Both the position numbers and the translations under genes were made by a program. Under the pieces are notes generated by a model that made no database searches, was not told the origin of the DNA, and saw only the letters and a program-made list of their open reading frames with translations. A stretch of 64,000 nt of DNA from Streptomyces carpinensis (GTDB lineage Bacteria > Actinomycetota > Actinomycetes > Streptomycetales > Streptomycetaceae), in the NCBI RefSeq assembly GCF_002154505.1, contig NZ_MUBM01000272.1, forward strand, positions 1 to 64,000. The letters are read 5' to 3'. Shown here piece after piece: positions 39,460 through 42,251 of this stretch; the stretch's first letter is position 1; each line of letters begins with the position of its first letter.

Positions 39460-40524
39460 ATGAGCGCTGTGAACCCCGCTGGAGGCGACACCGCGGCGGG
39501 CCGTTCCTGGCCCCGGGTGCTGAACGGACTGCTGGAGGGCCGGAACCTGGCCGCCGACGACACCGCCTGGGCCATGGACCGGATCATGGCCGGTGAGGCG
39601 ACGGACGCGCAGATCGCCGGCTTCGCGGTGGCACTGCGGGCCAAGGGCGCGACCGTCGAGGAGATCACCGGGCTCGTCCGCACGATGTACGAGCACGCGA
39701 ACGTGATCGAGGTGCCGGGCGCCACCGTCGACATCGTCGGCACGGGTGGCGACGGCGCGAAGACGGTGAACATCTCCACCATGTCGTCGATCGTCGTCGC
39801 CGGCACCGGCGCGAAGGTCGTCAAGCACGGCAACCGGGCCGCGTCCTCCGCCTCCGGGGCGTCGGACGTGCTGGAGAAGCTGGGCGTCAACCTCGATCTG
39901 AGCCCGCAACGGGTGGTGGAAGTCGCCGAGGAGGCCGGGATCACCTTCTGCTTTGCGGTGAAGTTCCACCCGGCACTGCGCCATGTGGGCGCCGCCCGCG
40001 GGCAGTTGGGGATCCGCACGGTGTTCAACCTGCTCGGTCCGCTGACCAACCCGGCGAAGGTGAGGGCGCAGGCGGTCGGTGTCGCCGTGGCGCACGAGGC
40101 GCCGATCGTGGCGGGCGTCTTCGCCGAGCGCGGCAACTCCTCCCTGGTCTTCCGGGGCGACGACGGCCTCGACGAGCTGACCACCACCGCGACCTCGCGG
40201 GTGTGGGTGGTCCGGGACGGCAAGGTCACCGAGGAGGCCTTCGACCCGCGGGAGGTGGGCATCGACCTGGTGCCGGTGGAGGCACTGCGCGGCGCCGACG
40301 CCTCGTACAACGCGGAGGTCGCCCGGCGCCTGCTGGATGGCGAGCAGGGCCCCGTACGGGACGCCGTCCTGCTGAACTCGGCGGCGGCCCTGGTGGCCCT
40401 CGAACCGGGTCCGGGGACGCTGGTGGAGCAGATCGGCGCCGGCATGGAGCAGGCGGCGGAGTCGATCGACTCCGGTGCGGCCAGGCGCACGCTGGAGCGC
40501 TGGGTGGCGGCCAGCAACGCCTGA
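39460..40524 (+). CDS. trpD: Anthranilate phosphoribosyltransferase
   Basis: Second step of tryptophan synthesis: transfers phosphoribose from PRPP to anthranilate. The 354-residue product has the PRPP-binding motif [17 protein letters not shown], the [18 protein letters not shown] stretch and the late LLGPLTNPA. No other trp genes are adjacent, as is usual for one of the trpD loci in Streptomyces. ATG 39460 has CAGGAG 6 nt upstream. Upstream it is insulated by the qcrB terminator; downstream lies the riboswitch promoter. Confidence 0.95.
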
Positions 40525-40571
40525 ATCCCATGGGGCGAGAGGCGGAGCGCGGTCCACGATCCGGACCGCGC

Positions 40572-40608: not shown

Positions 40609-40750
40609 GGTCATGAGTGACAGCCATGTGGCCCCGGCCGGCTGTCCGGCAACCCTCCGTCCGTGGCGGGGTGCCCCGGGTGAGGACCAGGCCGTAGGCA
40701 GCGAGGTCTACGGCAAGCGCGGACCCCTCGCGAAACCAGGGGTCCTGGTC
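40609..40750 (+). promoter_or_regulatory. SAM-IV riboswitch
   Basis: The leader begins GGTCATGAGTGACAGCC. It contains CCGGCAACCCTCC and GGCGGGGTGCCCCGGGTGA, closes with GGACC (40684-40688) pairing back to GGTC, and then has a GCCGTAG/CTACGGC hairpin (40691-40714). This matches the SAM-IV (SAM-I-like) aptamer known from Actinomycetales, as I recall it. A GGACCCC/GGGGTCC hairpin (40721-40745) follows and could be the expression platform. S-adenosylmethionine binding would be expected to repress the class-V aminotransferase gene. Confidence 0.85.
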
Positions 40751-40767
40751 GTACGAGGGAGCCTTCC

Positions 40768-40788
40768 GTGAGCAAGCGAATGCGCTAG
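40768..40788 (+). CDS. Six-codon ORF behind the SAM-IV aptamer
   Basis: GTG AGC AAG CGA ATG CGC TAG encodes MSKRMR. GAGGGAG lies 6-7 nt upstream, a better ribosome-binding site than most genes here have. It sits between the aptamer and the aminotransferase start 100 bp downstream. It may be a leader peptide through which the riboswitch acts. Confidence 0.4.
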   Translation: MSKRMR

Positions 40789-40889
40789 GGCCGCAGAGCC
40801 CCGCCTCCGCATCCCCTTTTCACCTTCACCCACGCTCGAGCCGTGTCCGCTCGCGTGGTGATTCCGCCTGCTTTCACGGGAGTTCACCC

Positions 40890-42251
40890 ATGTCCGTCTC
40901 CACCATCGCCGCCGACCAGTCCGTCTGTGCCCCGCTGCCCGTTCTGGGCCGAGATGTCACCGTGCCGCTCGTGACCGGTGGCGAGGTCGCCTACGCCGCC
41001 CTCGACTACGCGGCCAGCGCTCCCGCGCTGCAGCGCGTCTGGGACGACGTGGCGGCGTACGCGCCGTACTACGGCAGCGTCCACCGGGGCGCCGGCTACC
41101 TCTCGCAGCTGTCCACGGACCTGTTCGAGAACGCGCGCCGGACGGTCGCCGAGTTCCTCGGCTGCCGGGCGGGGGACCAGGTGGTGTTCACCCGGTCCAC
41201 CACCGACTCCCTGAACCTGCTGGCCCGCGCGATCCCCGCCGACTGCCGGGTGTTCGTCTTCGAGACCGAGCACCACGCCTCGCTGCTGCCCTGGCGGGAC
41301 GCGCAGGTGACGTACCTCGACGCCCCGCGCACCCCGGAGCAGGCCGTGGCGATCCTGGAGCGGGCCCTCGCGGACCGTGAGCCGCACGGCCCGGCCCTGG
41401 TCTGCGTCACCGGCGCCTCCAACGTCACCGGCGAGCTGTGGCCCGTACGGGAGCTGGCCGCCGCCGCCCACGCCCACGGTGCCCGGATCGTCCTGGACGC
41501 CGCCCAGCTCGCCCCGCACCACCCGGTGTCGGTCACGGACCTCGACGTCGACTGGGTCGCCTTCTCCGGCCACAAGCTCTACGCTCCGTTCGGCTCCGGG
41601 GTACTGGCGGGCCGTGCCGACTGGCTGCGCCGGGCCGAGCCGTACCTGGCGGGCGGCGGCGCGAGCCGCCGGGTCACGCGGCGCACCGACGGGGGAGTGG
41701 ACGTGGAGTGGCACGACAGCGCCGCCCGCCACGAGGCCGGCTCCCCGAACGTCATCGGCGCCTACTCGATCGCCTCGGCCTGCAAGGCGCTGACCGAGGC
41801 CGGCTTCGACACGCTGGTGGCCCGCGAGCGGTACCTGATCCGCAAGGTGAGGGAGGGGCTGGCCGGCGTCCCCGAGGTGAAGATCCTCTCCCTGTTCGGG
41901 GACGACGCCCCGCGCGTCGGCGTGATCTCCTTCGTCGTGGAGGGCTGGAACAGCTCCCACTTCGCCGCCGCGCTGTCCGCGGAGTACGGCATCGGCGTGC
42001 GCGACGGGCTGTTCTGTGCTCACCCGCTGGTTCGCACCCTGCTCGGCAGCGACGCGCAGACCCAGGGCGAGTGCGGCGCCCCCGAGGCCGCACCCGGCGA
42101 GAAGTCCCTCAACGCCATCCGGGTCAGCTTCGGCGCGGGCACGCCCGACGAGCACGTGGAGCGGTTCGTGACGGCGGTGCGGGAACTGGTGCGGGACGGC
42201 GCGAAGTGGCAGTACCGCACGGAGGACGGCCGCTGCGTACCGGCGGTGTGA
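40890..42251 (+). CDS. SAM-riboswitch-controlled class-V aminotransferase / cysteine desulfurase-like protein
   Basis: PLP enzyme of 453 residues in the cysteine desulfurase/selenocysteine lyase group. Motifs are FTRSTTDSLNLLARAIP, ETEHHASLLPW, CVTGASNVTGE, VLDAAQLAPH and the Schiff-base lysine in FSGHKLYAPFGSG. The late segment RDGLFCAHPLV places a cysteine where desulfurases have their catalytic one. Control by a SAM aptamer points to a role in sulfur amino acid metabolism; the exact substrate is not known. ATG 40890 has GGGAG 7 nt upstream. Confidence 0.88.
   Translation: MSVSTIAADQSVCAPLPVLGRDVTVPLVTGGEVAYAALDYAASAPALQRVWDDVAAYAPYYGSVHRGAGYLSQLSTDLFENARRTVAEFLGCRAGDQVVFTRSTTDSLNLLARAIPADCRVFVFETEHHASLLPWRDAQVTYLDAPRTPEQAVAILERALADREPHGPALVCVTGASNVTGELWPVRELAAAAHAHGARIVLDAAQLAPHHPVSVTDLDVDWVAFSGHKLYAPFGSGVLAGRADWLRRAEPYLAGGGASRRVTRRTDGGVDVEWHDSAARHEAGSPNVIGAYSIASACKALTEAGFDTLVARERYLIRKVREGLAGVPEVKILSLFGDDAPRVGVISFVVEGWNSSHFAAALSAEYGIGVRDGLFCAHPLVRTLLGSDAQTQGECGAPEAAPGEKSLNAIRVSFGAGTPDEHVERFVTAVRELVRDGAKWQYRTEDGRCVPAV

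Follow-up and report, generated by a model that had tools for sequence, protein, structure and literature searches.

A six-codon ORF lies between a SAM-IV riboswitch and an aminotransferase gene in Streptomyces carpinensis and may relay riboswitch control

The leader described here lies on a contig of Streptomyces carpinensis (NZ_MUBM01000272.1), of which the window, that is the whole stretch of DNA that was analysed, covers the first 64,000 nucleotides. We found a SAM-IV riboswitch aptamer that matches RF00634 over its full length (model positions 1-116 of 116; gathering score 38), and this is the sole RNA family match in the window at the gathering score. The ligand of the element, SAM, is assigned by its membership of RF00634. 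An earlier note, made from the letters of the sequence, had described this aptamer followed by a GGACCCC/GGGGTCC hairpin, GAGGGAG and an ORF for MSKRMR, and each of these was confirmed. The features of the locus are as follows (SD, Shine-Dalgarno sequence).

40609..40725, + strand: SAM-IV riboswitch aptamer (RF00634), by a covariance-model match of 110.6 bits
40685..40691, + strand: GACCAGG, the 3' strand of P1 plus AGG, complementary in sequence to CCTGGTC at 40744-40750
40721..40745, + strand: platform hairpin, GGACCCC (40721-40727) with GGGGTCC (40739-40745), from the sequence
40755..40761, + strand: SD of the mini-ORF, GAGGGAG, from the sequence
40768..40788, + strand: mini-ORF, GTG AGC AAG CGA ATG CGC TAG (MSKRMR and stop), from the sequence and comparison
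40777..40782, + strand: CGA-ATG (Arg-Met) codon pair, constant across mini-ORFs
40788..40801, + strand: hairpin GGGC-CGCAGA-GCCC, starting on the last base of the stop codon, from folding and stem counts
40789..40889, + strand: C-rich spacer from the mini-ORF to the gene, a candidate premature-termination region by base composition
40878..40882, + strand: SD of the main gene, GGGAG, from the sequence
40890..42251, + strand: class-V aminotransferase / cysteine-desulfurase-like gene, 453 aa (Aminotran_5)

The main gene starts with the ATG at 40890 and is separated from the mini-ORF stop by 101 nt, in keeping with the roughly 100 bp that had been given before, and it has its own SD. Its product belongs to Aminotran_5 (PF00266, 246.1 bits), and its best NCBIfam models are SufS-type cysteine desulfurases, at 245.7 and so below the cut-off of 475.1. 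The gene upstream of the aptamer (39460-40524) is one which we take to be trpD-like from its appearance. Directly past it is a GC-rich inverted repeat (GCGCGGTCC...GGACCGCGC, window 40547-40571), probably the terminator of this upstream gene, which was missed by our terminator scan because it has no run of T.

The riboswitch is nearly universal in the genus, with SAM-IV present in 118 of 121 genomes (that of the window counted). The exact 21-mer of the mini-ORF occurs once in its own 10.4 Mb genome, where four further sites need 3 mismatches. Hence, as the exact 21-mer is unique, the mini-ORF is not a chance occurrence. With up to 2 mismatches, among 197 genomes of the class, the 21-mer was found in 15 of the 16 Streptomyces-genus genomes and in 1 of 181 others. 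We then read 73 Streptomyces SAM-IV loci (L001, L003-L032, L044, L050 and L114-L153; L002 and L154-L173 were excluded), which are the best-scoring ones plus others hand-picked down the score list and not a random sample, and found NTG-N3-N3-CGA-ATG-N3-TAG behind the riboswitch in 72. All 72 have six codons and TAG, and they encode 14 different peptides: 52 are MSKRMR, and 20 carry one of 13 others (MMQRMR, MIQRMR, MSQRMR, MNQRMR, MVQRMR, MRKRMR, MRQRMR, MRMRMR, MSNRMR, MNTRMR, MSKRMC, MSKRMP and MSKRMS). In the lone exception, L147, the start of the aminotransferase gene occupies the position of the mini-ORF. By this comparison, the mini-ORF is real and strongly conserved.

The start codon was assessed with a pattern that does not include one, CAG/AAG-CGA-ATG-CGN-TAG-GGC, which was scanned over named genomes and gave at least 119 loci, all 119 of which were checked; the genus name Streptomyces for these comes from the 80 of 119 with records listed. 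Among the matches listed, 104 of 119 are preceded by a SAM-IV signature, and each of these 104 has a start codon at the position exactly two codons ahead of the pattern (98 GTG, 5 ATG and 1 TTG). In four of the remaining 15 (L256, L300, L314 and L317), GTG and a sequence resembling the platform are present, and these four probably represent the same element; L300 has a variant aptamer end, and the other three are truncated upstream. Among the matches listed, none of the 11 unrelated ones has ATG, GTG or TTG at the start position.

Codon usage was compared in 89 aligned six-codon copies (72 from Streptomyces and 17 from sister genera), which show a purine block at about -12 to -8 before the start. 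Codons 2 and 3 vary in amino acid, and codon 6 is Arg in 85 of 89 with its third base free. CGA is constant at codon 4 and TAG is constant as the stop, both in copies selected by a pattern that requires NTG, CGAATG and a stop codon; CGA also occurs at codon 6 in 48 of 89. In comparison, CGA makes up 3.5% of Arg codons in the 43 gene-like ORFs of the window, and TAG accounts for 10 of their 43 stops. Hence, because CGA at codon 4 and TAG are constant, the mini-ORF appears to be held to more than coding. TAG is the only stop codon with a final G, and that G opens the stop-overlapping hairpin. In E. coli, CGA is decoded slowly, as are rare Arg codons that precede a stop.

Beyond Streptomyces, we classed by eye 40 sister-genus loci from 15 genera of the family, hand-picked to span genera and not random. 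The same mini-ORF pattern is present in 17, and near variants are present in 2 (L178, MSKRM with TGA, and L192, MKRMR). Hence, the short ORF that the earlier note proposed to look for in other SAM-IV leaders is found in 19 of 40 sister-genus loci, these two variants included, besides the 72 of 73 in Streptomyces. In 12 of the 40, as in L147, the SD of the platform directly starts the same type of aminotransferase. The other sister-genus loci have GTG ATG GCG TGA (3 loci), an ORF for MQMMR (1 locus) or longer leader ORFs (5 loci). In genus g118 (L205, L208 and L209), the ORF behind the SAM-IV platform is thereby reduced to three codons.

Both the mini-ORF and the direct gene start were found within a single genus, g120. 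Moreover, 10 of 91 mini-ORF loci have a linker from aptamer to start that is too short for a platform hairpin, and here the aptamer lies directly next to the SD of the mini-ORF. Since the aminotransferase can start there directly and the aptamer can abut the mini-ORF SD, the output of the riboswitch appears to be the SD behind it, and comparison of the loci indicates that the mini-ORF stands where the regulated gene would otherwise be, behind the platform. Judged by the loci read, the SAM riboswitch of Streptomyces and its close relatives usually precedes a six-codon ORF, not an enzyme gene. Hence, the enzyme is probably controlled indirectly, via translation of a leader peptide. If so, a riboswitch class would be wired to a leader peptide, in place of a gene, throughout a genus of antibiotic producers, and the exchange of mini-ORF and direct start among close relatives (g120 and L147) would offer a ready comparison of direct and relayed output.

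That the riboswitch gates the mini-ORF, as had been suggested from the window, is likely and well supported by the comparison of loci; the folding model gave no clean switch. With an equilibrium two-state model (with and without P1) of 90 loci, the SD opened further in the absence of SAM in 21 and in its presence in 4, and the two states differed by no more than 0.1 in 65; the start codon had an average opening of 0.54 with SAM and 0.37 without, which is opposite to the expected direction. In the window, GACCAGG and CCTGGTC form a candidate switch between the SAM-bound P1 and an alternative helix, and CCCTCG of the platform hairpin has an alternative pairing, by sequence, with CGAGGG of the mini-ORF SD. 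By analogy, SAM would block translation of the mini-ORF; this direction is the one in which SAM riboswitches usually act.

Directly at the end of the mini-ORF, a stem of at least 4 Watson-Crick pairs is present in 87 of 91 mini-ORF loci, and all 87 stems begin on the last base of the stop codon. Four pairs are reached in 96% of loci and in 19% of dinucleotide shuffles, the mean folding z-score is -1.47 at the hairpin compared with -0.15 and -0.36 at two sites further downstream, and the arms covary (GGGC/GCCC, GAGGCC/GGCCTC, GGAGCC/GGCTCC, GAGCG/CGCTC, GGCGC/GCGCC and GGCCG/CGGCC). A MAFFT alignment of post-stop sequences (34 distinct 22-nt sequences of 73) came out ungapped with loop lengths misaligned and was excluded from the pair counts. 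A ribosome at the stop must melt this hairpin, and in these 87 of 91 loci its position is such that a ribosome on the ORF would disrupt it. With 4 bp in the window, the hairpin is a weak one, and it has no true U-tract of an intrinsic terminator, as its tail in the window is CGCCTCCG. Across the loci, the tails are pyrimidine-rich and often not U-rich, with at least 3 U in 8 nt in 41 of 87. The terminator scan of the window found no terminator at the leader or elsewhere.

The start of the main gene could be assigned in 86 of the 91 mini-ORF loci. In these 86, the gene has its own SD and lies 53-292 nt from the mini-ORF stop (median 110.5 nt), and the spacer has a mean composition of 0.44 C and 0.26 G, with C above 1.5 times G in 81%.

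Control of the aminotransferase by the mini-ORF is plausible, and the reading we prefer, with a probability of about 0.55, is a two-stage leader in which the riboswitch gates the mini-ORF and the mini-ORF relays the signal by transcription attenuation through the stop-overlapping hairpin. The riboswitch, the conserved in-frame ORF, the hairpin and the replacement of mini-ORF by main gene, or the reverse, after the platform come from sequence comparison; from these we infer that the mini-ORF is translated and responds to SAM in the stated direction, that the hairpin is the relay and that termination is the output. In the first stage, the SAM-IV riboswitch would set ribosome access to the SD and GTG, with the mini-ORF off when SAM is bound. 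In the second, translation of the mini-ORF would keep the downstream gene on. At low SAM, a ribosome that pauses on CGA-AUG or finishes at UAG would cover the 5' arm of the hairpin, and transcription would continue; at high SAM, no ribosome would load, the hairpin would form and transcription would stop within the C-rich leader, through either weak intrinsic or Rho-type termination. A premature transcript in the SAM-IV leader, as reported for S. clavuligerus, would agree with this reading; the mini-ORF is assumed to be present there, and the terms 'uORF' and 'leader peptide' are absent from the main text of the study on that species. Against attenuation, translation of six codons is brief and gives a ribosome hardly any chance to influence RNA polymerase. 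Both the invariant CGA-AUG pair and the hairpin at the stop are concrete targets that are easily mutated.

A possible but rather doubtful alternative keeps the same gating and assigns the relay to Rho, which would load on the C-rich, G-poor spacer when the mini-ORF is untranslated and end transcription there, so that the hairpin would merely trim or protect the 3' end or block ribosome run-through. The spacer composition given above agrees with it, as do, in the accessible parts of the papers, the enrichment of stem-loops at Rho-type 3' ends in E. coli (PMC8269248) and the Mbox uORF of Mycobacterium tuberculosis, which joins a translational platform with Rho-dependent termination (PMC12810186). 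However, ribosomes on the mini-ORF would leave the candidate region, which lies further downstream, uncovered, and C-richness may be common to Streptomyces leaders.

The mini-ORF could also act as a sensor, although we consider this unlikely. The CGA-AUG pair would then be a programmed pause whose length reports charged Met-tRNA, and the leader would be a gate with two inputs, SAM being read by the riboswitch and methionine by the ribosome that it licenses, or cysteine in the versions of other genera that have Cys codons. If true, the six-codon peptide would be one of the smallest attenuators.

A relay confined to translation is improbable. Here, ribosomes would stay after the mini-ORF and reinitiate at the aminotransferase, or would open structure over its SD, much as ppe2 of M. 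tuberculosis works primarily by termination-reinitiation according to the accessible text of PMC11260477. By the same text, ppe2 needs a tight overlap of stop and start, and such an overlap is absent in all 86 loci. Because the gene is 53-292 nt away and has its own SD, simple stop-start coupling or reinitiation is unlikely, and the premature transcript of S. clavuligerus also argues against a purely translational relay.

Conservation of the 21 nt as RNA (part of the platform, or a binding site for a protein or sRNA), with an incidental frame, is very improbable: it would agree with CGAATG and TAG being invariant, down to the synonymous third position of CGA, but among the matches listed the start is present in all 104 SAM-IV loci found without requiring one, always as G, A or T then TG, the frame is kept with 6 (L192), 9 or 12 nt between the start and CGAATG and ends in an in-frame stop, and related loci have clearly different peptides at the same place (MMA, MQMMR and MCIRRMCCR).

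Returning to the two-stage leader, riboswitch-controlled uORFs are known as a type, and the SAM-IV variant with a six-codon ORF appears, from the literature searched, to be new. The earlier note's remark that it knew of no described case was too strong, since such uORFs are published in M. tuberculosis, for B12 (metE and ppe2; PMC11260477) and for the Mbox (PMC12810186), as the available portions of these papers describe. The B12 riboswitch-uPPE2-ppe2 system is similar in that an actinobacterial riboswitch has a short uORF as its first controlled ORF, whose translation is required for the downstream ppe2 (PMC11260477, in the part available). It differs in its aptamer and in its relay by tight stop/start overlap and reinitiation, whereas the window has a 101-nt gap, a six-codon ORF and a stop-overlapping hairpin. 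As far as the accessible text of PMC12810186 goes, the Mbox-uORF2/Rv1805A-pe20 system likewise places a translational platform directly on a conserved small uORF and combines uORF control with premature transcription termination, but its aptamer binds Mg2+, its uORF has a homologue outside the Mbox context and its main 3' end is upstream of the uORF.

The trp, ilv and leu attenuators of Streptomyces resemble the window in that a short ORF comes before a hairpin open to disruption by a ribosome (PMC8079986, in the portion available, which also includes a published metL leader). Unlike in these classical attenuators, the riboswitch would gate initiation on the ORF itself, there is one invariant internal Met codon and no run of control codons, and the mini-ORF leader has no clear antiterminator or U-tract. 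Compared with SAM-IV as defined by RF00634, the element is a member by covariance model, and its output would be a mini-ORF and not a metabolic gene. No paper with 'MSKRMR', and no case of SAM-IV with a uORF or leader peptide, was found in the literature searched, which covers part of what is in print; no ORF of this sort following SAM-IV is mentioned in the accessible parts of PMC9971707, PMC8079986 and PMC2965389.

For Actinobacteria, candidate Cys leader peptides were already described in 2005 (PMC1262725, in the part available). The mini-ORF resembles the actinobacterial Cys-rich leader peptides (NF042934, NF042933 and NF042936) as a short leader ORF of sulfur metabolism, and several SAM-IV loci open onto leader ORFs of the Cys-rich type; unlike these, the mini-ORF of the window lacks Cys codons, and its length is below what the profiles can score. 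Cys-rich leader peptides of Actinobacteria are reportedly also the subject of work by Canestrari in 2020.

Stacking of SAM-IV and a leader ORF was looked for in 65 loci from other families of the class, whose classification was corrected by eye. The automatic leader/main classes (52 'LEADER', 51 'MAIN' and 2 'NONE') had mislabelled some loci: the 'LEADER' label of L041, L042, L049, L087, L099, L100, L110 and L203 came from a spurious NTG before the true gene start, and the 'MAIN' label of L113 and L214 was wrong on reading by eye. By eye, a short ORF lies directly behind the platform in 17 of the 65 (L113, with 57 codons, is the least sure), and 16 of these 17 have Cys codons (for example MCIRRMCCR, MSCQRMPRR, MTCRMRR, MCCCRMN and MRCCPLTRSH). 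Seven of them contain CGAATG, 9 or 12 nt past the start and in frame in 7 of 7. The stop-adjacent hairpin is not general in these loci outside the family (mean z of -0.45, with 4 of 17 below -1). Hence, SAM-IV opening onto a sulfur-type leader ORF is recurring, yet it is not the commoner arrangement outside the family.

A second, lower-scoring SAM-IV type in Streptomyces (L154-L173) comprises 20 loci and has longer leader ORFs in the 14 of these that were read, with ends like HIDLxR..SxLC- or VDLLRVNSALC. These ORFs are of the known Cys-rich leader peptide type, so that riboswitch and leader peptide are stacked. Seven SAM-IV leader peptides (three from Streptomyces, three from sister genera and one from another family) were compared with NCBIfam NF042934 'putative leader peptide', and 5 of 7 were above the cut-off. 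Together with the mini-ORF, this would show repeated stacking of SAM riboswitches and sulfur-amino-acid leader peptides in Actinobacteria.

The second SAM-IV of the genome of the window (L002, G000:C820:43102-43207, minus strand) precedes a 49-codon ORF ending in ...AVDLLRVNSALCTAPGCSRLQG, which scores 18.3 bits against NF042934, below the cut-off of 27. Downstream of this ORF is a gene that by eye resembles an amino-acid ABC transporter permease. A search of the same genome for further Cys-x-Arg-Met leaders gave three matches (L335, L336 and L337), none of which is a sulfur-gene leader by eye.

In genus g4 of family f4, short ORFs with Cys codons lie in the SAM-IV leaders of L037, L046, L053, L079 and L089, and their peptides are MARSPMRCCCQ, MRASLHPLTRCCCR, MCARFAHSLLIVCRC, MRSCR and MCIHQAHSRRFVCRR. 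In L055, L076 and L077 of the same genus, a gene starts directly there that is presumably metY-like, as named from its N-terminus.

Back-to-back SAM-IV pairs on opposite strands, 128-215 bases apart, were seen at four places (G040:C1:8784920-8785304, G436:C1:1096541-1096906, G426:C2:180862-181262 and G446:C169:14065-14498), which suggests divergent SAM-controlled operons.
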